48,275 nucleotides of DNA, taken from positions 1-48,275 of the forward strand of contig JAETQO010000039.1 in assembly GCA_021770655.1 (NCBI GenBank), read 5' to 3'. The notes below the pieces were generated by a model that saw only the letters and a program-made list of their open reading frames with translations, did no database searches and had not been told where the DNA came from. Positions 8,102-28,013 of the stretch are shown here, piece by piece. The DNA comes from Ruminococcus sp. Its GTDB lineage: Bacteria; Bacillota; Clostridia; Oscillospirales; Ruminococcaceae. Position 1 is the stretch's first letter. Each line of letters opens with the position of its first letter. A program made the position numbers and the translations under genes.

Positions 8102-8510
8102 TCCTTTTTTTTAATTCGGGGTGCAAGGTACTTCAAGGATTTACGACTCCGCCCGAAGACCTCGCTTGCATTAACTTCTCCATAGCATTAAACCGTTCTT
8201 TTTAATTTGGGTCGCAAGGTACTTCAAGGATTTACGACTCCGCCCGAAGACCTCGCTTGTGTGGCCTTTTCCATAGCATTAAACCACACAAGGTGCGTTT
8301 GGCGGTTCTTCCGCAACGTTGCTGTAACTTTTTTAATTGGATCGGTGTGGGAATCGTTCCTTACAATTCATTTGAGCCTTGAAACAACGTAGTGGAAGAA
8401 CAACCAAACGGACTATGTGCGGTTTAATGCTATGGAGAAGTTAATGCAAGCAAGGTCTTCGGGCGGAGTCGTAAATCCTTGAAGTACCTTGCACCCCGAA
8501 TTAAAAAAAG
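8102..8510 (+). repeat. E1 composite: two direct modules and one inverted module
   Basis: Forward modules start near 8105 and 8203; an inverted module (GGTTTAATGCTATGGAG ... CACCCCGAATTAAAAAA) occupies about 8400-8510. The result is a roughly 400-bp unit with long terminal inverted repeats between the T-box terminator and ydcF. One T-tract end lies against the ydcF Shine-Dalgarno; the other continues directly from the T-box terminator T-run. Confidence 0.85.
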
Positions 8511-8730
8511 AAAAAGAAGCCGATCCCAACTAAGGGACGACTTCTACCGTGATACCACCCTAATTACCCCGGCGTACAGCAAGGGTCACTCTATGCCTTA
8601 ACGCGGCGAACGTCCACCCTTTTTCAGGCAGAAACTCCGAGGTGTCCTTCCCTTCGCATTTCCGCAAGCCCTTTCACCGACGGCTCTCGCTGAAGCTTCA
8701 ACACGAGGTACTCTCCTCTTCACAGTTTTG
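8500..8730 (-). promoter_or_regulatory. T-box riboswitch leader (Asp, possibly Asp/His)
   Basis: On the minus strand the order is a GAAGAGGAGAGTACC stem I start (8722-8705), a GCGAGAGCCG/GGTGAAAGGGC distal stem I pair, a specifier region GAAGGACACCTCGGAG (GGACACC at 8647-8641), the T-box motif AGGGTGGTATCACGG (8561-8547) and a terminator. GAC followed by ACC is the expected specifier position for aspartate; a CAC (His) codon overlaps it by one base. T-box leaders sense uncharged tRNA and allow readthrough into synthetase genes. The downstream genes ydcF, hisS and aspS fit. Confidence 0.88.
8503..8545 (-). terminator. T-box intrinsic terminator
   Basis: Minus-strand AGAAGTCGTCCC pairs with GGGATCGGCTTCT and is followed by TTTTTCTTTTTTT. 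The last T-run is also the T-tract end of the adjoining E1 module, so element and terminator share these bases. Confidence 0.75.
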
Positions 8731-8733
8731 TAA

Positions 8734-12804: not shown

Positions 12805-12926
12805 AGGCAACACCGTACAACTATTGTGTGCGGATAACGCAGAAAATTTTTCGTTAGATTGTATAGAAACGACGCAGGAATACTTGTGTCTTTCAAGGAG
12901 TTTCTGTGCAAGATAACGGAAAATTG
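12805..12926 (-). repeat. E2 MITE-like element, one end missing
   Basis: It begins GGCAACACCGTACAACTA and runs through the E2 core (GTGTGCGGATAACGCAGAAA ... CTTTCAAGGAGTTTC ... GATAACGGAAAATTG). The far terminus is absent. It lies in the divergent region between the CPBP protease gene and htpG, about 30 bp upstream of the htpG -35. Confidence 0.8.
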
Positions 12927-15555: not shown

Positions 15556-15556
15556 A

Positions 15557-15893: not shown

Positions 15894-18272
15894 ATGGAAT
15901 TTGCGGCACATATAAGAGAATATGACGATAAAGTCCAGACTGTTGAGGAGCATAACCAAAACGTCGCCGAGCTGTCGGAAGAATATGCAAAAAGCATTTC
16001 AATGCCCGCAACAGCTTACCTTATGGGCAAATGTCACGACCTCGGCAAGCTTACCGCCGACTTCAACGGCTATATCTGCGGCAAAAATAAATTCCGCCGA
16101 GGCGACCTCGACCACAGCTTTGCAGGTGCGAAATATATCTTCGAGCTTGCAGAAAAATTCAACATCGGTCATAACAAAAGCGTGTATGAAGTTTCCCGTT
16201 TTATCGCCCGTACAATCATCTCCCATCACGGACTTCACGACTGGGTGAGAGAGGACGGCTCAAGCTATTTCTCCGACAGACTTTCCAACAGCGAAAGATA
16301 CAATGAAATATCCCGTAATACCGAATATCTCTGCGGCGATACGGAGCTTTACCGCCTTCTGAAATCCGCCGCAGAAGAATACGGTAAAATAAGAAAAACC
16401 GTACAAAGCTTAAGCCCTAATGCAGAAATTTTCGCCTTTTACCTTGGTATGCTCGAACGTTTTATGCAGTCCGTCCTTATTGACGCCGACCGCACCGATA
16501 CCGCCGATTTTATGTCGGACTGTAAAACCGAAAAGCAGTTTAACACCTCTCATCTGTGGAACACAATGTCCGACCGCATGAACGCCAAGCTTGAAAGCTT
16601 CGGAAACAAAACCGACCGCATCTCTCTTCAGCGCAAAAGCATATCCGACCGCTGTGCCCGATTCGCAAACCATAAAGTAGGCGTATGCAGGCTGATCGTT
16701 CCCACAGGCGGCGGAAAAACCCTTTCATCACTGCGTTTCGCAATCGACTACTGCAAGAACAACGACATGGATAAAATAATCTACATCGCCCCGTTTATGT
16801 CCATACTTGAACAGAACAGCGACGAAATATGCGTCATAGCAGGCAAAGAAAATTTTCTTGAGCACTATTCCGACTTTGCTCAGAAACTCGATGATAAAGA
16901 AGAACTTGCCGAGTACGAACTGAGAACAGAAAAATGGGATTCTCCCGTCATCGCCACCACAATGGTGCAGTTTTTCAACACTCTTTTCTCAGGGCAAAGC
17001 GCCTCCGTCCGCAGAATGCACCGCCTGAGCCGAGCCGTCATCATAATCGACGAAGTCCAGTCCATACCTCTTAAATGCGTGCATCTCTTCAACCTCGCAG
17101 TAAACTTTCTCTCCCACATCTGCGGCAGTGCGGTCGTGCTTTGCTCCGCTACCCAGCCTATGTTTGAAAAAACCGACTACCCTATTATCCTTGACGAGCA
17201 GTCCAGTATGACAGGAGATTATTCCCGTGACTTCGAGGTTTTCAAACGTACCGAGATTATCCCACAGTTAAAAAAGGAAGGCTATACATACAGTACTGCG
17301 GCGGACTTCTGCTATGAAAAATATCTTGAAAACGGAAATCTCCTCGCCGTAGTGAACACCAAGGAATCCGCCTCGGAGATCTACATCGCAATAAAAGAGA
17401 AAAACGATTTGTCCCCCGACAGTGAAAAAGCAAACGTCGTGCATCTCAGTACCAATATGTGTCCCCAGCACCGCAGAAAAGCTATTTCCGAAATGCGCGC
17501 TATGCTCAGCAACGGACAAAAGGTTATCTGCGTGACCACTCAGCTTATCGAGGCGGGAGTCGATATATCCTTTAACTGCGTAGTACGTTCACTTGCAGGT
17601 CTGGACAACGCTGCACAGGCGGCCGGAAGATGCAACAGAAACGGCGAGGTAAGCAACGCCTGCCCCGTGTATATCATAAATATCAGCGACGAAAGGATCG
17701 ACAGACTTCAACAGCTTACGTCGGCGCGCTCGTCGTCGGAAAGAATAATCGCAGGCGGACAGTTCCCCGATCTGCTTTCCACCGACGCAATGTCCCTCTA
17801 TTTCCGAATGCTCTATAACGAGCGCCGTACCGAACTTTCCTATCCCGTGAAAGGAATCGGAACAGCGGACGATCTTGTCGATCTGCTGTCGCTGAACATA
17901 CACAGAAACAGAGACACGCTCACAACCTATGCCGAAAATAAATACTGCGCCCAGGCTTTCAAAACCGCAGGCGGCCTTTTCCGTGTGATCGATGAAAACA
18001 CAGAAGACATTATCGTCCCCTATGACGATGAAGCCGAACAGCTCCTTCTTCGGCTGGACTCCGACATAACTCCCCACGAAACCGCCGAGTTGCTGCGAAA
18101 AGCACAGAAATACACCGTTTCCGTCTACCCCAACACCAAAAAGAAACTTGACGAAAGCGGCGCGATCATGCCCCTTAAATGCGGCGCGCTGAGATTGCAG
18201 GCGGATTTCTATGACAGCAGTGCGTTAGGCGTATGCTTAAAAAGCCGCGGCAAGCCGCTCCTGTTGTTCTGA
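15894..18272 (+). CDS. cas3: CRISPR-associated nuclease-helicase Cas3 (type I-C, HD fused)
   Basis: Recruited by Cascade to nick and unwind target DNA. 792 residues. N-terminal HD nuclease: His20, CHDLGK (His48-Asp49), HHGLHDW near 110. SF2 helicase: Walker A VPTGGGKTLSS near 265, IIDEVQSIP (DEVQ box), LCSATQP (motif III), and AAGRCNRNG (motif VI). A short C-terminal domain follows. ATG 15894 with GGGAGA 7 nt upstream. All catalytic motifs look intact. In typical I-C loci cas5c follows directly; here a 2.5-kb insert with a guide-like RNA and a secreted-protein gene separates them, so cas3 and Cascade have separate promoters. Confidence 0.97.
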   Translation: MEFAAHIREYDDKVQTVEEHNQNVAELSEEYAKSISMPATAYLMGKCHDLGKLTADFNGYICGKNKFRRGDLDHSFAGAKYIFELAEKFNIGHNKSVYEVSRFIARTIISHHGLHDWVREDGSSYFSDRLSNSERYNEISRNTEYLCGDTELYRLLKSAAEEYGKIRKTVQSLSPNAEIFAFYLGMLERFMQSVLIDADRTDTADFMSDCKTEKQFNTSHLWNTMSDRMNAKLESFGNKTDRISLQRKSISDRCARFANHKVGVCRLIVPTGGGKTLSSLRFAIDYCKNNDMDKIIYIAPFMSILEQNSDEICVIAGKENFLEHYSDFAQKLDDKEELAEYELRTEKWDSPVIATTMVQFFNTLFSGQSASVRRMHRLSRAVIIIDEVQSIPLKCVHLFNLAVNFLSHICGSAVVLCSATQPMFEKTDYPIILDEQSSMTGDYSRDFEVFKRTEIIPQLKKEGYTYSTAADFCYEKYLENGNLLAVVNTKESASEIYIAIKEKNDLSPDSEKANVVHLSTNMCPQHRRKAISEMRAMLSNGQKVICVTTQLIEAGVDISFNCVVRSLAGLDNAAQAAGRCNRNGEVSNACPVYIINISDERIDRLQQLTSARSSSERIIAGGQFPDLLSTDAMSLYFRMLYNERRTELSYPVKGIGTADDLVDLLSLNIHRNRDTLTTYAENKYCAQAFKTAGGLFRVIDENTEDIIVPYDDEAEQLLLRLDSDITPHETAELLRKAQKYTVSVYPNTKKKLDESGAIMPLKCGALRLQADFYDSSALGVCLKSRGKPLLLF

Positions 18273-18356: not shown

Positions 18357-18482
18357 TTAAGGTAACACCGCACAACTATTGTGTGCGGATAACGCAGAAA
18401 ATTTTTCGACAGATTGTATAGAAACGACGCAGGAATACTTGCGTCTTTCAAGGAGTTTCTGTGCAAGATGACGGAAAATATA
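18357..18482 (+). repeat. E2 MITE-like element, one end missing
   Basis: TTAAGGTAACACCGCACAA followed by the E2 core (CGGATAACGCAGAAAA ... CTTTCAAGGAGTTTCTGTGC ... GACGGAAAAT). Same truncation type as the copy at 12805. It lies between cas3 and the guide-like RNA. Confidence 0.8.
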
Positions 18483-18524
18483 CAGAAAATTGTGCGTTTT
18501 ACTGAATCGGCTCAATTAAAGTAT

Positions 18525-18609
18525 AAAAATCACCGCATGGGGTGAACCATGCGGTGAACAGCATTGATTATATCATTATACTATTTTCAATCCACGCCTA
18601 TACAGCGAC
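18525..18609 (-). ncRNA. CRISPR-derived guide-like RNA (degenerate I-C repeat, pseudo-spacer, terminator)
   Basis: Read on the minus strand, 18609-18584 is a 26-nt degenerate copy of the array repeat. It keeps the 5' GTCGC and the 3' GGCGTGGATTGAAA and has lost most of the 5' stem arm and loop. The predicted transcription start (7 nt after an extended -10) falls on its first G. The following pseudo-spacer (from 18583) contains AGTATAATGATATAAT. A perfect 10-bp hairpin CACCGCATGG/CCATGCGGTG (18556-18531) with ATTTTTAT then ends the unit. Pseudo-spacer positions 2-17 match 18709-18694, next to a TTC PAM. The layout resembles CreA/CreR regulatory guides of other CRISPR types; function here is inferred. 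Confidence 0.65.
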
Positions 18610-18615
18610 AAAATT

Positions 18616-18625
18616 ATTATATCAT
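18616..18625 (-). promoter_or_regulatory. Extended -10 promoter of the guide-like RNA
   Basis: Minus strand ATGATATAAT provides TG-N-TATAAT. No good -35 is seen (ACATTG at 17 bp). The same 10-mer occurs in the pseudo-spacer and in the target site, and TGATATAAT recurs in promoters at 33347 and 45820, so it is a common promoter string in this genome. Confidence 0.55.
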
Positions 18626-18674
18626 TTTTATAACAATACAATGTGAACAATTTGTAAATTCAAGTCTGCAACTA

Positions 18675-18713
18675 TTGACAAGTGCAGATAATTATTATAT
18701 CATTATACTTGAA
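18675..18713 (+). promoter_or_regulatory. Promoter of the FN3 gene overlapping a predicted Cascade target
   Basis: TTGACA (18675-18680), 17-bp spacer, TATCAT (18698-18703) points at the FN3 gene. On the minus strand TTC (18713-18711) is followed by a sequence identical to pseudo-spacer positions 2-17 (18709-18694). A Cascade-length footprint from 18710 down to about 18678 would cover -10 to -35, so binding would block this promoter. Confidence 0.6.
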
Positions 18714-18771
18714 GATAGAAGATAAGAGTGCTGTAAAAATAATATGATGTCATTGAATATATGCAAAATAA

Positions 18772-18794
18772 GTGACACATATATCCACTTTTGA
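18772..18794 (+). repeat. GACATATG-type motif, copy 1
   Basis: GTGACACATATATCCACTTT lies in the leader of the FN3 gene just before its Shine-Dalgarno. It matches copies at 20408 and 20652. Confidence 0.7.
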
Positions 18795-18807
18795 AAGGAG
18801 TTAAGTT

Positions 18808-20397
18808 ATGAAGAAAAATGTAAAAAGAATTGCCACGGTAGCTCTTGCATCGATGATGATAGGAATAGGTGCGGTAGGAACAGCTGTTGATTTCCCTCTT
18901 GTGCAGAACACATCTATAACGGCTGAGGCGGCAAGTGTCGGAAAGGTTTTGGGGCTTACATCGAAAACTCTTAGCAACAGTGAAATAAAGCTGAGCTGGA
19001 AAAAGGTCAGCGGAGCAAGCGGATATTCGGTATGTATGCGTAAAAATGGTAAGTATCCGCAAATCGCGGACGTGAAGGGTACGACTTACACTGTCAAGAA
19101 TCTACCGAACGCCACCAGAGAGAATTTCAAGGTTCGTGCGTACAAGCTTGTTAACGGCAAAAAGGTTTACGGTGCATATTCTGATAATTGGAACACGGCG
19201 ACAAATCCTCAGCAGGTAACTCAGCTTAAAGTGGCAAGCGTGACTTCTTCATCGGTAAAGCTTACATGGAAGAAGATTGGCTGTACGAATTACCGTGTTT
19301 ATCAGCTCAAATCGGGCGAGTGGAAAGAGATTGCTACGGTAACGTCAAATTCCTATATCGTTAAAAATCTCAGTGCAAATTCTTCATATCAGTTTAAGGT
19401 AAGAGCCTGCAAAAAGGACGATAAGAAAACAAATTACAATCATTATGGTAAATATTCAGATGCAATAACGGCGCAGACAAGTGTTGAACAAGTTCATAAT
19501 GTAAATGCTGAAACTCTTAGTAATAGTCAGATAAAACTGAATTGGAATAAGGTCAGTGGAGCAAGCGGATATTCAGTATGTATGAGAAAAAGCGGTAAGT
19601 ATCCGCAGATTGCTGATGTTAAAGGCACAAGTTATACTGTAAAAAATCTGCCGAACGCTACCAGAGAGAATTTTAAGGTAAGGGCTTACAAGCTTGTTAA
19701 TGGAAAGAAAGTGTATGGTTCATTTTCTGAAAATTGTCATTCAGCAACAAATCCTCAAAAGTCTGTTATAACAAGCAGTTCTGCATCAAAAAATTCAGTA
19801 TCTTTAAAATGGAAATCAATTGGTTGTACGTCATATCAAATTTATGTTTCTGAGAATAAGTCATGGAAGCTGTATTGTGAAACTAATGATACCAGCTATG
19901 AGATTAAAGGTTTGACAAGCGGAACGTGTTATGATTTTAAGGTCAGAGCTTTGAAAAAGGACGATAACAGAAAAACGCATTATGGCGAATATAGCGAAGT
20001 TGTTACAATTAAGACAAATGAGAATAAAAAAATAACTCAGGAAGACATCGACCAGATGCGTAGAGAGCTTCAGGAGTATTCCAACAGTCAGGCAAAATAT
20101 GTACAAGAACATTATACTGAATTTTGGCGTTATGGTATAGATTATACTACTTTGGAAGAATATTTTCAAATGTGTATAAATGAAAGTACGCCTGAAAATT
20201 CTGGATACGACAGTGTAGCAACAATAACTTTTGATACCGATGAAAATTTAGATAATATAAAATCAAATTTTTATTCTTATATAGATTATGAATATAAGGA
20301 AAGACCCAAGACTTATTACGTAGTTTATGTGGAAGTTTGTCCTAATGGTCATCGGGTAAATTCAAATCCATGTTGGGCGGTTTATTTTCTTACTTAA
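18808..20397 (+). CDS. Secreted protein with four fibronectin type III domains
   Basis: 529 residues. A Sec signal peptide (Lys-rich start, hydrophobic 10-25, likely cleavage after AEA near residue 41) is followed by four FN3-like domains (about 45-130, 133-227, 230-315, 318-405). Domains 1 and 3, and 2 and 4, are near copies (shared SGASGYSVCMRK and LPNATRENFKVRAYKL), so an FN3 pair was duplicated. Residues 410-529 form an unrecognised domain rich in Tyr, Glu and Asp with no visible catalytic motif. AAAGGAG lies 7 nt before ATG 18808. It sits inside the cas locus in the cas orientation, has its own promoter, and is more AT-rich than the cas genes, suggesting separate acquisition. FN3 domains usually bind proteins or glycans at the cell surface. 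It is not a known cas gene. Confidence 0.9.
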   Translation: MKKNVKRIATVALASMMIGIGAVGTAVDFPLVQNTSITAEAASVGKVLGLTSKTLSNSEIKLSWKKVSGASGYSVCMRKNGKYPQIADVKGTTYTVKNLPNATRENFKVRAYKLVNGKKVYGAYSDNWNTATNPQQVTQLKVASVTSSSVKLTWKKIGCTNYRVYQLKSGEWKEIATVTSNSYIVKNLSANSSYQFKVRACKKDDKKTNYNHYGKYSDAITAQTSVEQVHNVNAETLSNSQIKLNWNKVSGASGYSVCMRKSGKYPQIADVKGTSYTVKNLPNATRENFKVRAYKLVNGKKVYGSFSENCHSATNPQKSVITSSSASKNSVSLKWKSIGCTSYQIYVSENKSWKLYCETNDTSYEIKGLTSGTCYDFKVRALKKDDNRKTHYGEYSEVVTIKTNENKKITQEDIDQMRRELQEYSNSQAKYVQEHYTEFWRYGIDYTTLEEYFQMCINESTPENSGYDSVATITFDTDENLDNIKSNFYSYIDYEYKERPKTYYVVYVEVCPNGHRVNSNPCWAVYFLT

Positions 20398-20407
20398 TAA
20401 TTTTAAG

Positions 20408-20430
20408 GTGACATATGTATCCGCTTCTGA
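20408..20430 (+). repeat. GACATATG-type motif, copy 2
   Basis: GTGACATATGTATCCGCTTC lies just downstream of the FN3 gene. Similarity to copy 1 continues through AAGTTATGAAG, so the start region of the FN3 gene seems to have been duplicated here. Confidence 0.7.
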
Positions 20431-20442
20431 AAAAGAAAAGTT

Positions 20443-20562
20443 ATGAAGGGAAAATTAATTTTAACACTGCTTTATGGGATGCTTATTTTTGAGATATTGT
20501 CAGTATATGATGATAGATTCTTGACTTATTCATTTAATTGCTTGATTCATCTCACTATTTAG
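20443..20562 (+). CDS. Small hydrophobic peptide ORF (39 residues)
   Basis: ATG 20443 to TAG 20562 encodes MKGKLILTLLYGMLIFEILS followed by a polar tail ending LIHLTI: one possible membrane segment after a basic start. The start region resembles that of the FN3 gene (shared motif and AAGTTATGAAG), which supports a translated start; the Shine-Dalgarno (AAGAAAAG) is weak. It may be a short remnant of a duplicated signal peptide or a genuine small membrane peptide. I cannot tell which. Confidence 0.35.
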   Translation: MKGKLILTLLYGMLIFEILSVYDDRFLTYSFNCLIHLTI

Positions 20563-20651
20563 CACTTCTATTCGGTTTAAGCATAACTTTGGAAGGTTTG
20601 TTTGAATGCTGTAGCGGATCGAATTACAGAAAAAGGAAGATAAATGAAAAT

Positions 20652-20709
20652 GTGACATATGTGTCCACTTTTGAGGAAATGTGTTGACTTTTGCGACATA
20701 TGGGTGTAC
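20652..20709 (+). repeat. GACATATG-type motif, copies 3 and 4 at the cas5c promoter
   Basis: GTGACATATGTGTCCACTTT (from 20652) lies just upstream of the cas5c -35, and GCGACATATGGGTGTAC (20693-20709) lies between -35 and -10. GACATATGTGTC is an imperfect palindrome, so these look like sites for one regulator at both the FN3 and the Cascade operons. Confidence 0.6.
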
Positions 20710-20712
20710 AAT
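20684..20712 (+). promoter_or_regulatory. Promoter of the cas5c-cas2 operon
   Basis: TTGACT (20684-20689), 17-bp spacer, TACAAT (20707-20712), with a leader of about 95 nt before cas5c. Confidence 0.7.
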
Positions 20713-20813
20713 ATAAATTGTGCTATATATATCCATATTTAGATATGATTTCCACGGCAGTATCCCATAAAAAACTTTAATAAAACCAACTTGTAAAAAA
20801 GGAGATGATAATA

Positions 20814-21563
20814 ATGAGCAAACAAGTTTTCCGTAACACCGTCGAATTTGAGGTCAGCGGTCCCTATGCCTTGTTTTCCGATGTGCTTACAAGAGCCTCA
20901 GGTGAAAAATGCACCTATATGCTTCCCACCTACGAGGCGCTTAAAGGTATACTGCAAAGTGTGTACTTTAAGCCTACGCTGATATGGAAAATAGACTCAG
21001 TGCGCATAATGAATAGGATACAGACCGAGCGAAAAGGTATGCGCCCGATAAATTACAGCGGCGGAAACGATCTTGCATTTTACACTTATCTGAGAAACGT
21101 CCGCTATCAGGTCAGAGCGCATTTCGAGTGGAACATGAACCGCCCCGAGCTTGAATCCGACAGGAACGAACACAAGCACCATAACATCGCAAAACGTATG
21201 ATAGAACGCGGCGGCAGGCGCGACGTCTGGCTCGGAACCAGAGAATGTCAGGCTTACATCGAACCCTGCGTTTTCGGCGAGGGCAAAGGCTATTACGACG
21301 GCAGCGGCGAAATGATATACGGCCTGAATTACCATGGAATTACATATGCGGACGAGGCTGTCAACCCCGAAGACAAAGGAAAAATGACCGTCCGTTTCTG
21401 GAATCCCGTAATGCGTGACGGCATAATCGATTTTATTCCGCCGGAGGATTGTACGATAAAAAGACATATAAAAAATATGCCTATAAAGCCTTTCGGCAAA
21501 GAGAATAACAATTTCAGCGGACTTGATGAATTTACAGGAGGTGAGGCTGATGAGCTGGACTGA
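20814..21563 (+). CDS. cas5c: Cas5c (type I-C pre-crRNA endonuclease and Cascade subunit)
   Basis: In type I-C, Cas5c replaces Cas6: it cuts the repeat at the base of its hairpin and stays on the crRNA 5' handle. About 249 residues. The N-terminus VFRNTVEFEVSGPYALFSDV and the block LPTYEALKGILQSVYFKPTLIW are characteristic. A His/Arg-rich stretch (DRNEHKHHNIAKRMIERGGRRD) and WLGTRECQAYIEPCVFGEG follow. ATG 20814 with AAGGAG 9 nt upstream is preferred to ATG 20805, which abuts that site. First gene of the Cascade operon; it overlaps cas8c by 14 bp. Confidence 0.95.
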   Translation: MSKQVFRNTVEFEVSGPYALFSDVLTRASGEKCTYMLPTYEALKGILQSVYFKPTLIWKIDSVRIMNRIQTERKGMRPINYSGGNDLAFYTYLRNVRYQVRAHFEWNMNRPELESDRNEHKHHNIAKRMIERGGRRDVWLGTRECQAYIEPCVFGEGKGYYDGSGEMIYGLNYHGITYADEAVNPEDKGKMTVRFWNPVMRDGIIDFIPPEDCTIKRHIKNMPIKPFGKENNNFSGLDEFTGGEADELD

Positions 21564-23439
21564 TGAGCTTTATAAGATATACGAAAACAACTGCGGCAAA
21601 AATGACTTCGGCATACCAATGCTCCCCGTCTCCCATTCCACCGCCAACGCTCAGATAGAACTTACCCTGAAAGACAACGGCGAGTTCGTGAGCGCTCACC
21701 CCGTCGATAAATCCGACGCAGTAACGATAATCCCCGTAACGGAGGATTCCGGCTCCCGCAGCAGCGGTATTGCGCCTATGCCCCTTGCGGACAAGCTTGT
21801 CTATATAGCGGGCGACTACAGCGCCTACGCCGAGGGAAAACGTGCGGATAATTCCGATTATTTTGCCGCCTATCTGAAACGGCTTAAAGAGTGGCGTGAC
21901 AGCGAAAACTCTCACCCTGCGGTAAAAGCCGTCTGCGCCTATCTTGAAAAGAGCTGTATAATGAAAGACCTTGTGGAATCGGGCGTTCTGAAAACAGACC
22001 CCGAAACGGGCAGGCTTGACAGCAGTAAAATTTCAGGCATCGCTCAGCAGGACGCCTTCGTCCGTTTCCGTATCATCTACAGCGACGATACGACAGGCGA
22101 AAAAGAGTCCCGCACATGGTTCGACAGCGAACTTTACGACAGCTTTATCACATTCAACAGCGCCTCCATAGGTCACAGCCAGCTTTGCTATGCAACGGGA
22201 AAAATTCTCCCCTGCACATATAAGCACCCCGCAAAAATCAGAAACGCCGGCGACAAAGCAAAGCTTATTTCCTCCAACGACGAAACAGAAAGCTTTACCT
22301 ATCGGGGAAGATTTGCCGATAAGAAAGAAACACTGTCCGTAAGCTACGACTTCTCCCAGAAAATGCACAACGCCTTGAAGTGGCTCATCGCAAAGCAGGG
22401 AATGAACATCGAAAATTCGCTTATGGTCATCGTCTGGGCAAGCGCCCTCCAGCCCCTGCCAGATATAAGAAAAAGCTTTTCCCAGTGCTGTGACGACGAG
22501 TTTCCCGACGAAGAAGCGGAATATGTTCCCGATACCGAAGCCGCGTATTCTTTAATGCTGAACAAAATGATATTCGGCTATGAAAAAGATATGGATATGT
22601 CCTCAAAGGTAATGATAATGGGACTTGACGCCGCCACCACAGGCAGACTTTCCATAGCAATGTATACCGAGCTTGAAGGCTCAGCCTTTCTGGAGAACAT
22701 AAAAAACTGGCACAACGAAACTGCGTGGCCGCGTCTGAAAAAGATTTCGGATAATTACAAGAACATCATCGATTCTTTCGGCGTCTATGAAATTGCCGAG
22801 TGCGCTTTCGGAACGGAACAGAACGGCGTGCTTAAATGTAAGTCCGAAATAAAGACCGATACCGTCATAAGGCTTATCCCCTGCATCACAGAGGGAAGAA
22901 AACTTCCTGCGGATATAATGAGAAATCTCTATGAAAAAGCCTCCAATCCCCTCGCCTATGAAAGCGGCTATAATCACCGCAAGGTCGTTGAAACAGCCTG
23001 CGGAGTAATTAAAAAGTATAATTATGACCATAAGAAAGGAGTAATAAGTATGTCTCTCGATCACGACAATACTGAAAGAAGCTATCTTTACGGCCGTCTG
23101 CTTGCCGTAGCCGACAAAGCGGAATCTGATTCCTATGATGAAAGCGAAAAGGGCAAGCGCATTACAAATGCCAAACGCTACTGGAATAATTTTTCTTCCA
23201 GACCCTACCGCACATGGGGCGTTATTGAACAAAAGCTCAGACCATATCTCGATAAGCAGGGCGTAAATTCTGTCAAATACGAAAAACTTATACAGGAAAT
23301 AATGAACAAAATGGATAGTGAGGAATTTAAAAGTCCAAAGGCTCTCGAACCCTCTTATCTGCTTGGCTATCATTGCCAGCTAAGCGAACTGTATCCGAAC
23401 AAATCAAACACCGAAGGTATAGAAAACAAGGAGGAATAA
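21550..23439 (+). CDS. cas8c: Cas8c (type I-C large subunit)
   Basis: Large Cascade subunit that recognises the PAM (TTC in I-C) and helps recruit Cas3. About 629 residues, normal length. Typical blocks: ENCGKNDFGIPMLPVSHSTA at the N-terminus, PLADKLVYIAGDYSAY, QQDAFVRFRIIYSDD, GRLSIAMYTELEGSAFLENI, ESGYNHRKVVETACGVIKKY and a C-terminal SYLLGYHCQLSELY. In I-C the C-terminal part often also yields an internal Cas11 small subunit: the in-frame ATG at 23050 (MSLDHDNTERSYLYGRLLAV), preceded by AAGAAAGGAG, is a good candidate start for it. ATG 21550 has GGAGG 8 nt upstream inside the cas5c end. Confidence 0.95.
   Translation: MSWTDELYKIYENNCGKNDFGIPMLPVSHSTANAQIELTLKDNGEFVSAHPVDKSDAVTIIPVTEDSGSRSSGIAPMPLADKLVYIAGDYSAYAEGKRADNSDYFAAYLKRLKEWRDSENSHPAVKAVCAYLEKSCIMKDLVESGVLKTDPETGRLDSSKISGIAQQDAFVRFRIIYSDDTTGEKESRTWFDSELYDSFITFNSASIGHSQLCYATGKILPCTYKHPAKIRNAGDKAKLISSNDETESFTYRGRFADKKETLSVSYDFSQKMHNALKWLIAKQGMNIENSLMVIVWASALQPLPDIRKSFSQCCDDEFPDEEAEYVPDTEAAYSLMLNKMIFGYEKDMDMSSKVMIMGLDAATTGRLSIAMYTELEGSAFLENIKNWHNETAWPRLKKISDNYKNIIDSFGVYEIAECAFGTEQNGVLKCKSEIKTDTVIRLIPCITEGRKLPADIMRNLYEKASNPLAYESGYNHRKVVETACGVIKKYNYDHKKGVISMSLDHDNTERSYLYGRLLAVADKAESDSYDESEKGKRITNAKRYWNNFSSRPYRTWGVIEQKLRPYLDKQGVNSVKYEKLIQEIMNKMDSEEFKSPKALEPSYLLGYHCQLSELYPNKSNTEGIENKEE
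23050..23439 (+). CDS. Candidate internal Cas11c start within cas8c
   Basis: An in-frame ATG (23050) inside cas8c is preceded by AAGAAAGGAG at good spacing and would give a roughly 129-residue helical protein ending with the Cas8c C-terminus. Type I-C and related systems are known to make Cas11 this way. The ribosome site is clear in the sequence; the product is inferred. Confidence 0.6.
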   Translation: MSLDHDNTERSYLYGRLLAVADKAESDSYDESEKGKRITNAKRYWNNFSSRPYRTWGVIEQKLRPYLDKQGVNSVKYEKLIQEIMNKMDSEEFKSPKALEPSYLLGYHCQLSELYPNKSNTEGIENKEE

Positions 23440-23442
23440 ATT

Positions 23443-24303
23443 ATGTCAACGCTACAGAATAAAATTGATTTTGCGGTAATAATATCCGCAACCAACGCCA
23501 ACCCCAACGGAGATCCCCTGAACGGAAACCGTCCCCGCGAAAACTTTGACGGCTACGGAGAAATATCCGACGTATGTATCAAAAGAAAGATCAGAAACCG
23601 TCTTCAGGATATGGGCGAAAAGATATTCGTCCAGTCCGACGACCGATGCGACGACGGCTGTGACAGCCTGAAAAAGCGTGCCGAAAACTGCGCGGCTCTC
23701 AAAGCGTTAAGCAACGGCAAAAACACCAACCGTGACGATTATGCCAAAGCCGCCTGCGCCGAGTGGATAGACGTCCGCAGTTTCGGACAGGTGTTCGCAT
23801 TCAAGGGCGATACCGTTTCCGTAGGCGTAAGAGGTCCGGTATCCATTCAGCAGGCAGTGAGCATAGACCCCGTAGACATCGTAAGTATGCAGATAACCAA
23901 AAGCGTCAACAGCGAGAGCGCCAAGCAAGGTAAAGCCTCTGATACGATGGGCGCCAAACACAGAGTTGAATTCGGACTGTATGTCGTTAAGGGAAGTATA
24001 AACTGCCAGCTTGCCGAAAAAACAGGCTTTACCGACGAAGACGCAGACAAGATCAAGGAGGCTCTTAAAACCCTTTTTGAAAACGACTGCTCCTCCGCCC
24101 GTCCCGAGGGCAGTATGGAGGTCTGCCGCCTGTATTGGTGGAAACACAACTGCAAAACTCCAGCAAATTCCTCCGCAAAGGTTCACCGCTCCCTTAAAGT
24201 CAAGCTGAAAGACGGCGTTGCAAAGCCAATGTCCTTTGAAGATTACGACATCACCCTTGAAGAGCTCGACGGCGTAAAACCCGAGATCTACGATATGATA
24301 TGA
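23443..24303 (+). CDS. cas7c: Cas7c (Cascade backbone subunit)
   Basis: Binds the crRNA spacer as the repeated backbone of I-C Cascade. 286 residues. Landmarks: the N-terminal ATNANPNGDPLNGNRPR loop, ISDVCIKRKIRNRL, WIDVRSFGQVFAFKG, VRGPVSIQQAVSIDPV and the Csd2-type RVEFGLYVVKGSINCQLAEK. ATG 23443 with AGGAGG 7 nt upstream, 3 nt after the cas8c stop. It overlaps cas4 by ATGA. Residues 60-90 are Cys/Asp-rich (DDRCDDGCDSL), a modest family variation. Confidence 0.96.
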   Translation: MSTLQNKIDFAVIISATNANPNGDPLNGNRPRENFDGYGEISDVCIKRKIRNRLQDMGEKIFVQSDDRCDDGCDSLKKRAENCAALKALSNGKNTNRDDYAKAACAEWIDVRSFGQVFAFKGDTVSVGVRGPVSIQQAVSIDPVDIVSMQITKSVNSESAKQGKASDTMGAKHRVEFGLYVVKGSINCQLAEKTGFTDEDADKIKEALKTLFENDCSSARPEGSMEVCRLYWWKHNCKTPANSSAKVHRSLKVKLKDGVAKPMSFEDYDITLEELDGVKPEIYDMI

Positions 24304-24971
24304 CCTACAGCGAGGACGAATACCTGCTACTTTCGGGCATACAGCATTTTGTGTTCTGCCGCAGGCAATGGGCGCTTATACATATCGAACAGCAGTGGGA
24401 GGAAAACCTCCGCACTGTTGACGGAAGCATTATGCACCGCAACGTCCACGACAGCGGCTTTAACGAAAAGCGGGGAGAGCTTATAACCGCCAGATCCATG
24501 TCGGTCTCCTCTTCCCGACTGGGAATAAGCGGCGAGTGCGACGTTGTTGAATTCCGCCGCTCACCAAACGGAACAGAGCTTTTCGGCAGAGAAGGTAAAT
24601 ACTCCGTCACGCCCATAGAATATAAGCGCGGCGAACCCAAGGAAAATGAAAGCAATATAATGCAGCTTGCCGCACAGGCGATGTGTCTTGAAGATATGCT
24701 GTGCTGTAGGATTGACTTCGGCTACCTCTTTTACGGCGAGATCAGACGGCGTGTCAAAGTCGAAATATCCGACGACCTGCGAAAACGCACAGAAGACGTG
24801 ATCTCCGAAATGCACTCCCTTTACCGACGCAGGCATACCCCAAAAGTGAAAAGGACCCGGTCCTGCAACGCCTGCTCTCTGAAAAATATATGTCTGCCGG
24901 CGATCTGCGGAAATAAAAAAGCGTCCGACTATGTAAAGGGTATGCTGAACGGAGAGGAGGACATCAGATGA
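24300..24971 (+). CDS. cas4: Cas4 exonuclease
   Basis: RecB-like iron-sulfur nuclease that trims prespacers and helps select the PAM during adaptation. 223 residues. Visible: the N-terminal Cys (FCRRQW, about 19), a metal-binding His (MHRNVHDSG), GECDVVEF (Asp), PIEYKRGEP (Glu-x-Lys of the RecB motif), QLAAQAMCLE, and the C-terminal Cys triad SCNACSLKNIC for the 4Fe-4S cluster. The start overlaps the cas7c stop (ATGA) and the stop overlaps the cas1 start (ATGA), giving tight coupling. Confidence 0.95.
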   Translation: MTYSEDEYLLLSGIQHFVFCRRQWALIHIEQQWEENLRTVDGSIMHRNVHDSGFNEKRGELITARSMSVSSSRLGISGECDVVEFRRSPNGTELFGREGKYSVTPIEYKRGEPKENESNIMQLAAQAMCLEDMLCCRIDFGYLFYGEIRRRVKVEISDDLRKRTEDVISEMHSLYRRRHTPKVKRTRSCNACSLKNICLPAICGNKKASDYVKGMLNGEEDIR

Positions 24972-25999
24972 AAAAGCTTTTGAATACCCTTTATGTCACT
25001 ACTTCGAACAGGTACCTTTCCCTTGACGGAGAAAACGTGGTGATACTCTGTAAGGACGAGGAAATAGGACGCATACCGCTGCATAATCTGGAACGGATAA
25101 TGACCTTCGGCTATACGGGAGCAAGCCCCGCCCTTATGGGGAAATGCGCGCAGGACGGCAAAGAGCTTGTATTCATGAGCAGCAGCGGCAGGTTTCTCGC
25201 AAGAGTAGAGGGCGAAAACTGCGGAAACGTACTTCTCAGACGTCAGCAGTACCGTTTTGCAGACGATCCCGCCCAAAGCCTCGGCATAGCAAAATACATG
25301 ATAGCAGGAAAGCTTTACAACAGCCGCTGTGTGATAGAACGTACCCTCCGCGACCACGAGCTTAGAATAAATACGGAAAAATTCAGAAAGAAATCTCAGT
25401 TTCTGAAAGAAGCATCAGTCAAATCCCTGTCGGCAAAGGATATCGATACCCTCAGAGGTATCGAGGGCGAAGCCGCCTCGGTTTATTTTTCCCTTTTCGA
25501 CGATATGATCCTACAGCAAAAAGAGGATTTTGCCTTCACGGTAAGAAGTAAACGTCCGCCGCTTGACAAGGTCAATGCACTTCTGTCCTTCGCCTATTCG
25601 CTGGCAACAGGAATGTGCTCCTCCGCCCTGGAGTCCGTAGGTCTTGACCCCTATGTCGGGTTCATGCACACCGACCGTCCCGGCAGACGTTCTCTCGCTC
25701 TCGACCTTGTAGAGGAATTCCGCGCACTGATGTGCGACAGATTTGTGCTTACCCTTATAAATAAACGAACGATCTCAGCAAAGGATTTTGAACAGCGTGA
25801 GGACGGCGCAGTCCTGCTCACAGACAACGGGCGAAGAACCTTTCTTTCCTCTTGGCAGACCCGAAAAAGTGACGAGATCAAACACCCGTTCCTCGGAGAA
25901 AAAGTAGAATGGGGTCTGCTTCCGTATGTCCAGGCACTGCTCCTCGCCCGATATATCCGCGGCGACCTTGACTGTTATCCTCCCTTTATGTGGAAGTGA
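24968..25999 (+). CDS. cas1: Cas1 integrase (type I-C)
   Basis: Catalytic subunit of the Cas1-Cas2 spacer integrase. 343 residues. The N-terminal beta domain (LNTLYVTTSNRYLSLDGENV) is followed by the helical catalytic domain with the expected Glu (RGIEGEAASVYF, about 160), His (GFMHTDRPGRRSLALDLVEEFR, about 230) and Asp/Glu in the same block. All catalytic residues look intact. It is coupled to cas4 by an ATGA overlap and is followed 4 nt later by cas2. Confidence 0.97.
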   Translation: MKKLLNTLYVTTSNRYLSLDGENVVILCKDEEIGRIPLHNLERIMTFGYTGASPALMGKCAQDGKELVFMSSSGRFLARVEGENCGNVLLRRQQYRFADDPAQSLGIAKYMIAGKLYNSRCVIERTLRDHELRINTEKFRKKSQFLKEASVKSLSAKDIDTLRGIEGEAASVYFSLFDDMILQQKEDFAFTVRSKRPPLDKVNALLSFAYSLATGMCSSALESVGLDPYVGFMHTDRPGRRSLALDLVEEFRALMCDRFVLTLINKRTISAKDFEQREDGAVLLTDNGRRTFLSSWQTRKSDEIKHPFLGEKVEWGLLPYVQALLLARYIRGDLDCYPPFMWK

Positions 26000-26003
26000 A
26001 ATT

Positions 26004-26294
26004 ATGCTTGTACTGATAACCTACGACGTAAATACCCAAACCAAAGAAGGCAGAAAAAGGCTACGCCGGGTAGCGAAGCTCTGCGTAAATTACGGAGTCC
26101 GTGTGCAGAATTCGGTATTTGAGTGTGTGGTCGATAACGCCCAATGCCGCGAACTAAAGCATAAACTAACCAATGAGATCGACCGTGAAAAGGACAGCCT
26201 GCGCTTTTACTATCTCGGGGATAAATATAAAACCAAAGTGGAGCATATCGGTGCAAAAGAGGCGATTGAAGTAGATCAGCCTCTTATCTTCTAG
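26004..26294 (+). CDS. cas2: Cas2
   Basis: Structural partner of Cas1 in spacer integration. 96 residues with the ferredoxin-like Cas2 pattern: MLVLITYDVNTQTKEGRKRL (catalytic-type Asp in YDV), NYGVRVQNSVFECVVD and DSLRFYYLGDKYKTKVEHIG. ATG 26004 is 4 nt after the cas1 stop; the frame is open further upstream, but that part is inside cas1. The TAG stop is 170 bp before the first repeat. Confidence 0.96.
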   Translation: MLVLITYDVNTQTKEGRKRLRRVAKLCVNYGVRVQNSVFECVVDNAQCRELKHKLTNEIDREKDSLRFYYLGDKYKTKVEHIGAKEAIEVDQPLIF

Positions 26295-26464: not shown

Positions 26465-28013
26465 GTCGCCCTCCCCACGAGGGCGTGGATTGAAATATAA
26501 CATTTTGAAACTGTCGGCTTGGAATCATGCGTCGCCCTCCCCACGAGGGCGTGGATTGAAATTTTGCCATTAAGTAAATAATCTACAGTGCAATTTGTCG
26601 CCCTCCCCACGAGGGCGTGGATTGAAATAGTATATAAAGAAACTATGCAAAGACGGTAAGCTGTCGCCCTCCCCACGAGGGCGTGGATTGAAATTATATA
26701 AAAGCCCACCTTTAGGGTGGGTTCAATGTCGCCCTCCCCACGAGGGCGTGGATTGAAATTTCTTTTTTAAAATGCTGTCAAAGCCTTTGGGCTGTCGCCC
26801 TCCCCACGAGGGCGTGGATTGAAATCGCATTTTTAGGGTTAGATAGCTTTAGTGTGAACATGTCGCCCTCCCCACGAGGGCGTGGATTGAAATTATATTT
26901 ACATTTTAATAACGCACTATTCCAAAACGTCGCCCTCCCCACGAGGGCGTGGATTGAAATACACTTGACCTTGAACAGCCCGTAAAGTTGGTTAGTCGCC
27001 CTCCCCACGAGGGCGTGGATTGAAATAACCCAACCTGTCTTACCATCATCGTGCCAGGGGCGGTCGCCCTCCCCACGAGGGCGTGGATTGAAATATTTCA
27101 AGGCTTGCAATAGTCAGTAATGTAATAGTCGCCCTCCCCACGAGGGCGTGGATTGAAATTTTACAAGAGATATGGTTTTAGTTTTGCGCCTTGTCGCCCT
27201 CCCCACGAGGGCGTGGATTGAAATTCTGTAATTCTGTCCTCTGATTTGTAGCATACTCTACGTCGCCCTCCCCACGAGGGCGTGGATTGAAATATTCTTA
27301 ACTGCAAGTATTGGTCTTATGCCCTCTATGTCGCCCTCCCCACGAGGGCGTGGATTGAAATATACTCGTCTATATCGTATGTATAACCCGTCTGTAGTCG
27401 CCCTCCCCACGAGGGCGTGGATTGAAATATCATACTTTTTTTGTTGCTCTGCTGTACGTTCAGTCGCCCTCCCCACGAGGGCGTGGATTGAAATCCACAA
27501 AATCACAAATATTTGTTGACCTGCACAAGTCGCCCTCCCCACGAGGGCGTGGATTGAAATAACATTGCCTCTTGACAAATCTCCTGCAATGTGCGTCGCC
27601 CTCCCCACGAGGGCGTGGATTGAAATATAGCCATATCAAGTTTGTCCACGCTATCAGCAGTCGCCCTCCCCACGAGGGCGTGGATTGAAATAAAGAGTGT
27701 GTTATCATTAAAGTGCTATCAAAAATAAGTCGCCCTCCCCACGAGGGCGTGGATTGAAATACCCTGATAGTTGTCAAAAGGGTGGTCATAATCGTCGCCC
27801 TCCCCACGAGGGCGTGGATTGAAATAAACCACAGCCTGCCTCGCTTGCCGCCACGGTTAGTCGCCCTCCCCACGAGGGCGTGGATTGAAATCTCGTCAAG
27901 TTCGTTGAAAAAATTCTGCGGAGTTTCCCGTCGCCCTCCCCACGAGGGCGTGGATTGAAATTGTTGAGTATTTACACAATTGTAATCTTCCTGAGTCGCC
28001 CTTCCCACGAGAG
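26465..28013 (+). CRISPR. Type I-C CRISPR array, 24 repeats and 23 spacers
   Basis: The 32-bp repeat starts GTCGCCCTCCCC and ends GCGTGGATTGAAAT, with a CGCCCTC/GAGGGCG hairpin. Starts: 26465, 26531, 26597, 26663, 26728, 26794, 26862, 26929, 26995, 27063, 27128, 27193, 27262, 27330, 27397, 27463, 27529, 27595, 27660, 27729, 27794, 27860, 27930 and a degenerate, truncated last copy at 27995. Repeats 1-23 look identical; spacers are about 33-38 bp. The degenerate copy at the far end and the leader at the cas2 side agree on orientation. No spacer is repeated. Confidence 0.99.

Follow-up and report, generated by a model that had tools for sequence, protein, structure and literature searches.

CreR acts in effector-mediated autorepression of cas genes, and its primary description reportedly appeared in Cell Host and Microbe in 2023. 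As far as excerpts of three articles go, CreR is named for types I-B, I-E and V-A (PMC13131331), given for type I and type V-A generally (PMC12737573), or mentioned with the subtype unstated (PMC12948488). CreA, the guide RNA of CreTA modules (type VIII toxin-antitoxin), is described as pairing with its target at positions 1-5 and 7-11 next to TTC; the creA gene of H. hispanica contains a single repeat and is closed by a terminator (excerpts of PMC8501985). In CrePA, the Cascade-repressed protein toxin CreP typically possesses a KilA-N domain and stops division (excerpt of PMC12737573). A further example is scaRNA-Cas9 of F. novicida, where a CRISPR-derived RNA regulates a non-cas chromosomal gene (excerpt of PMC9458426).

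The DNA analyzed here (48,275 nucleotides from Ruminococcus sp., called the window below) contains a guide unit that can be compared with all of these systems. With CreR it shares a crRNA-like RNA (here predicted), a mini-CRISPR beside the cas genes and partial complementarity to a cas promoter (excerpts of PMC13131331, PMC12737573 and PMC12948488), as well as, probably, autorepression through the effector. It differs from CreR in its subtype (I-C), in the combination of one repeat with a terminator, in the presumed processing by Cas5c, in pairing through positions 16-17, and in the foreign gene that separates the promoter from the cas operon. As in CreTA, the repeat is degenerate, the PAM is a 5' TTC, pairing involves the seed and position 6 is free (excerpts of PMC8501985); however, the guide is not directed at a small toxic RNA, and no CreT-like mini-ORF was found at the target. 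As in CrePA, a protein-coding gene lies behind a Cascade-guided promoter (excerpt of PMC12737573), but this gene, FN3, encodes a predicted secreted protein that is not known to be toxic, and the promoter itself goes back to the cas genes. The scaRNA system also resembles the window in its logic, whereas it belongs to class 2 and uses another RNA and another effector (excerpt of PMC9458426).

The initial annotation of this DNA had proposed a CRISPR-derived, partly complementary guide with a type I-C PAM on the promoter reading into the FN3 gene, and the sequence supports this proposal. Judging from the sequence, we consider it very probable that this is a type I-C guide of the CreR kind, which regulates cas genes, with this promoter (P1) as its target. 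No type I-C CreR was found in the literature searched, and the primary CreR paper may list such loci. What may be new is the subtype I-C, the CreR class itself being already known.

Type I-C locus and guide unit

The locus comprises cas3 (15894-18272; HD and helicase domains), cas5c (20805-21563), cas8c/csd1 (21523-23439), cas7c (23443-24303), cas4 (24300-24971), cas1 (24968-25999) and cas2 (25926-26294), all on the plus strand. They are followed by a CRISPR array (26465-27994, plus strand) with 23 identical 32-nt repeats and spacers 33-38 nt long, and from 27995 on there is a last, decayed repeat. This set of genes, together with the array of 32-nt repeats, is that of type I-C. The cas5c ORF opens at 20805, but its relatives align from residue 4, so that the true start may be 20814. 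Three array spacers match sites in the window at 16 of their first 20 positions, the neighbouring trinucleotides being CCA, ATA and GTT. The interval between cas3 and cas5c holds the guide unit and the gene for the 529-aa FN3 protein.

The guide unit is a minus-strand mini-CRISPR (18624-18525) consisting of a promoter, a shortened I-C repeat, a 17-nt guide and a terminator. Its extended -10 element (TGATATAAT, 18624-18616) predicts a transcription start at 18609, which is 7 nt further on and is the first base of the repeat copy. No good -35 element was seen upstream; extended -10 promoters tolerate the absence of a good -35. In the degenerate repeat (18609-18584), the sequence GTCGCTGTATAGGCGTGGATTGAAA (18609-18585) is a copy of the array repeat GTCGCCCTCCCCACGAGGGCGTGGATTGAAAT without the inner part of the hairpin; a 4-bp hairpin (CGCU-GUAUA-GGCG) is kept, and the 5' handle reads UGGAUUGAAAA (such handles are 11 nt long). 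The 3' part of the repeat, GGCGTGGATTGAAA, occurs 24 times in the genome, i.e., 23 times in the array and once at the guide unit. The guide (pseudo-spacer positions 1-17; 18583-18567) is followed by an intrinsic terminator (18557-18525) with an 11-bp stem (18557-18530) and TTTTT, which replaces the 3' repeat. All parts of the unit listed in the initial annotation (extended -10, degenerate repeat, pseudo-spacer, terminator) are present; its terminator hairpin with T-run was correctly recognized, only the stem has 11 bp and not 10. As in CreR, a lone degenerate repeat with its guide adjoins the cas genes.

Just past the terminator of the guide gene lies one copy (18360-18479) of a MITE-like 120-nt repeat, which is 95% identical to the other copy at 12805-12924; a 23-nt piece of it recurs at 15556. 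Elsewhere in the window, a T-box leader is located on the minus strand (8530-8732).

Target site and promoter P1

The target (18694-18713, minus strand) consists of the PAM TTC (18713-18711), which is the usual PAM of type I-C, and a protospacer (18710-18694). Guide positions 2-17 are identical to 18709-18694, and position 1 is mismatched. The target overlaps the plus-strand promoter P1 (18675-18703), which is composed of TTGACA (18675-18680), a 17-nt spacing and TATCAT (18698-18703), agrees with the consensus at 11 of 12 positions, and aligns with the cas5 promoter of a related locus (L032). The distance from P1 to the ATG of the FN3 gene (18808) is 105 nt. Both the 16-nt identity beside TTC and the overlapped promoter reading into the FN3 gene were as originally described. 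A full 34-nt footprint from 18710 would extend to 18677 and thus cover the -10 and most of the -35 element.

In 3000 dinucleotide shuffles of the region 18611-18830, a core match of at least 14 together with TTC was never obtained, and neither was a 16-nt identity; with any PAM allowed, such a core match appeared twice. The PAM-plus-core pattern has a single exact place in the whole genome, the 18710 site, the next best place having 2 mismatches and 26 places having up to 3. Within the window, no guide site except 18710 was found (core of at least 11, TC or TT adjoining), which rules out that the guide also targets the window's cas5c or cas3 promoter.

The same guide logic would apply to a CreTA module, in which P1 would produce a small toxic RNA and the guide would be the antitoxin, and a 16-codon ORF opening at 18744 can be read by eye in the FN3 leader. 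However, a scan for the features of CreTA (small RNA, strong ribosome site, rare-codon mini-ORF) revealed no mini-ORF preceded by a ribosome site in the neighbourhood of the target. CreTA was rejected for the window on these grounds, and we regard it as highly improbable here.

Guide units in other type I-C loci

A cas5c search of genome contigs provided a first set of 69 loci. Together with the window, they contain 47 lone matches to the 3' part of the repeat (up to 2 mismatches), of which 17 were picked by hand because they lie a short way upstream of cas5c or cas3 on the minus strand or, for the window, at 18597. For these 17 units, all sites within 700 nt were ranked by identity over 20 guide positions, with the PAM and positions 6 and 12 unweighted. 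The first-listed site was upstream of cas5 or cas3 (in the window, P1) in 16 of the 17 units; in L053 a second site scores equally well, and in L033 the site on the promoter is tied for the best score and listed second. The PAMs of the 17 sites were TTC (13), TTT (2), CTC (1, L053) and CTA (1, L045).

The set was enlarged by 60 regions from the family and 29 further loci (2 left over from the family search and 27 that a search of the order found in other genomes). This gave 159 oriented loci, or 146 non-redundant ones after removal of identical cas5c stretches; one cas5c place (G681) is left out of the survey. A unit was counted if its handle had at most 1 mismatch and its core matched at 13-15 of 15 positions (positions 6 and 12 were left out of the selection) with a TTC- or TTT-flanked site within 400 nt. 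Such units were present in 33 of the 146 loci, the window included, with TTC in 28 and TTT in 5 cases. Their targets are located at most 320 nt upstream of cas3 (18 loci) or cas5 (13 loci), i.e., in 31 of 33 cases, the exceptions being the window and L161. In 31 of the 32 other units, therefore, the guide is partly complementary to a cas promoter and the site has the PAM of the subtype, as in CreR. By the same criteria, no unit was found in 113 of the 146 loci (11 of the 146, without a cas3 start having more than 250 nt before it, were incompletely tested), and thus the unit is common but not universal.

Below the threshold, and not counted, are L045 (shifted by one, PAM CTA), L053 (PAM CTC), L173 and L074 (handles with 2 and 3 mismatches, respectively) and L194 (core 12). 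Six scrambled handles gave no locus at up to 1 mismatch and 4, 4, 1, 0, 1 and 0 loci at up to 3 mismatches, compared with 35 for the real handle; note that scrambled handles are themselves rare sequences, and this control therefore mainly bounds the joint criterion.

A similar guide to a cas3 promoter, with PAM TTT, is present on the plus strand of L093 (6798-6893), a type I-C locus from a metagenome bin labelled Treponema; if this label is correct, the design extends past Firmicutes. In L161 (1530-1800, with cas5 forward; the same region is found in L232), a plus-strand guide unit has a TTC-flanked target on the minus strand at 1699, at a distance of 913 nt upstream of cas3. Below this target, the minus strand carries a ribosome-site-like GAGGTG, the short frame ATG ATA ATG ATC CGT GCA CCA TAG and a hairpin with a T run. 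This region is possibly a CreTA module inside a type I-C locus.

Guide-target co-variation

The 33 guides are all distinct, with a mean pairwise identity of 6.8 of 17 positions; 11 guide pairs have at least 13 of 17 letters in common, and the loci are therefore not all independent. Over positions 1-17, the numbers of mismatches in the 33 loci are 1, 0, 0, 0, 0, 23, 0, 2, 1, 1, 1, 16, 1, 0, 2, 1 and 13, the low counts in the core being in part due to the choice of loci on the core. Mismatches pile up at positions 6 and 12, and pairing stops at 16-17; positions 18-30 are mismatched at 67-89% (27 loci). Cascade pairing has a 5+1 periodicity, and the observed pattern is, at the level of sequence, the one expected for Cascade.

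In a swap test with 27 loci, own guide-target pairs scored 13-15 of 15, and at least 13 was reached by 3 of 702 swapped pairs. Guide and target thus co-vary, as they do in CreR, and the check that had been suggested for related genomes was passed strongly. The co-variation excludes, as the sole cause, a simple promoter duplication, i.e., that guide and target are alike only through a shared AT-rich -10 origin. A similar string (15/20, PAM TGT) is indeed present at the guide gene's own -10 (18632); however, guide and target change together across differing guides, along with the PAM and the 5+1 periodicity, and the shuffles gave no match with TTC in 3000 attempts. We give this explanation next to no credence.

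In 28 of the 33 loci, including the window, the handle directly adjoins a hairpin with a stem of at least 4 bp, compared with 31% of shuffles; terminators were detected in 24 of the 33. Two features of the window count against a CreR, namely the mismatch at guide position 1 and the hairpin of only 4 bp. Together with the shortened repeat and the foreign gene within the operon, they could mean that the unit is a formerly working CreR that has been unused since the insertion. Yet hairpins of only 4-5 bp occur at several other loci as well, and the handle, the TTC, 16 contiguous paired positions, the terminator and the -10 element are all intact; a mere relic is in our opinion very unlikely.

The FN3 gene as an insertion

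The FN3 gene (18808-20397, plus strand) encodes a predicted secreted protein of 529 aa. A signal-like hydrophobic N-terminus and FN3 domains recognized by Pfam are consistent with the secreted multidomain protein of the first description. There is no sign of a CrePA toxin, which would typically contain KilA-N: Pfam identifies FN3 and no KilA-N domain, and NCBIfam has no match. A single-sequence structure model has a mean pLDDT of 61.2, with values below 50 for residues 398-529.

The cas3-cas5c distance, the low GC and the lack of relatives found identify the gene as one inserted behind a guided cas promoter. The starts of cas3 and cas5c are 4911 nt apart in the window, compared with a median of 2387 nt and a next largest value of 2868 nt among 138 loci. 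The GC content is 37.1% (GC3 32.8%) versus 46.8-50.3% (GC3 53.8-59.2%) for cas3, cas5, cas8 and cas7. No relative was found among the 69 first-set I-C loci (tblastn, 1e-3), and the C-terminal domain was matched in 3 of 297 genomes of the family, the own genome counted; the two relatives whose ORFs were read are small proteins that have a signal-like N-terminus and linkers rich in Thr. That FN3 is a common accessory of type I-C loci was rejected, since no relative turned up in the 69 loci and its C-terminal domain is rare in the family genomes. A phage origin was rejected as well, as viral contigs contained no relative of the C-terminal domain and no phage DNA resembling the guide region was found. 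When the guide region was used as the query of a wide DNA search, the matches in other genomes were all short, and no cas or FN3 gene was found at three of the best-placed ones (L010, L011 and L012).

The history of the promoter can be traced by comparison with L032, where the region 8424-8660 consists of terminator, guide, repeat, promoter and cas5c start, and cas5 follows directly. The window block 18522-18744 aligns with this region with a score of 140 (shuffles: mean 33.6, sd 5.8), whereas the gap before cas5c (20396-20830) scores an unremarkable 40 against L032 (shuffles: mean 29.8, sd 5.2, maximum 51). P1 is therefore the former cas5c promoter. The initial annotation regarded the guide as aimed at the cargo gene; this part is not upheld, given that 31 of 32 other units target sites upstream of cas3 or cas5 and that the window aligns with the cas5-promoter block of L032. 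With FN3 having landed behind a cas promoter that was guided before, the parent class would be CreR, and the cargo a passenger or a secondary target.

A 23-nt motif (GTGACAYATRTRTCCACTTTTGA) is present at 18772-18794, 20408-20430 (with 2 changes) and 20652-20674, so that its copies flank the FN3 gene and precede a possible second promoter, P2. It occurs only at these three places in the own genome (up to 3 mismatches) and, when 120 genomes were searched (up to 2 mismatches), it was not found in any of the 119 others; it might serve as an operator or be the footprint of an insertion. Past the second copy, a hydrophobic ORF of 39 codons (20443-20562) has a start that resembles that of the FN3 gene, and may represent a decayed duplicate or a small membrane peptide.

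P2 and the control of the cas genes

P2 (TTGACT-17-TACAAT, 20684-20712, plus strand) agrees with the consensus at 10 of 12 positions and lies 93 nt upstream of the cas5c ORF. As it stands directly before cas5c and has no guide match, the cas genes may have left guide control. On the other hand, no terminator-like site was found on the plus strand between 18270 and 20830, and P1 transcripts may therefore run on into cas5c. Depending on which of P1 and P2 dominates, the system would be either a plain autorepression circuit carrying a passenger gene or a switch that has been rewired.

In the latter case, the cas genes would be transcribed from P2 alone, the guide would control essentially only FN3, and Cascade loss or an anti-CRISPR would switch FN3 on. 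The logic would be CrePA-like, with a secreted protein replacing the toxin, and is compatible with a CreR origin. The presence of P2 fits this scheme, as do the guide's only exact genomic target on P1 with none near P2, a guide-target match kept intact despite the insertion, and the locus-only 23-nt motif beside both FN3 and P2. However, nothing resembling a terminator separates FN3 from cas5c, a role of FN3 in defence has no support, and both the C-terminal domain in the family and FN3 relatives in I-C loci are as scarce as described above. We consider such rewiring possible but rather doubtful. It is a speculative and unlikely extension that, with the cas genes served by P2, the insertion turned the cas guide into a Cascade-controlled FN3 switch in which Cascade loss or inhibition triggers export of FN3 as a surface alarm or decoy.

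Proposed mechanism

For the CreR-type guide that we favour, we infer, from the precedent of CreA and CreR, the following course of RNA production, processing, binding, repression and read-through. The guide RNA would run from ~18609 on the minus strand to the terminator. Cleavage by Cas5c at the foot of the small hairpin would leave the handle before the guide, and the guide would be loaded into Cascade (Cas5c-Cas8c-Cas7c). The complex would bind the TTC-flanked P1 site via positions 1-5, 7-11 and 13-17. Because pairing ends at 17, it would block RNA polymerase instead of licensing Cas3. Since P1 originally served the cas5-8-7-4-1-2 operon, the circuit would be one of autorepression: more free Cascade would lower cas transcription, and competition by crRNAs or an anti-CRISPR would lift the block. 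The FN3 gene, together with its own leader, was inserted between P1 and cas5c. FN3 would now be the first gene behind the repressed P1, and the cas genes would be fed by read-through from P1 plus the share of P2. Cascade with CreR thus probably represses P1 and hence FN3 and part of the cas5-cas2 transcription.

Biological implications

These data suggest that RNA-guided autorepression of cas genes extends to subtype I-C. The signature derived from 33 loci, each with its own guide (mismatched positions 6 and 12, end of pairing at 16-17), can be used for finding such guides elsewhere and for predicting their targets base by base. Furthermore, the window illustrates how Cascade control can be extended to a gene that happens to insert behind a guided promoter, which is a plausible route to CrePA-like devices.
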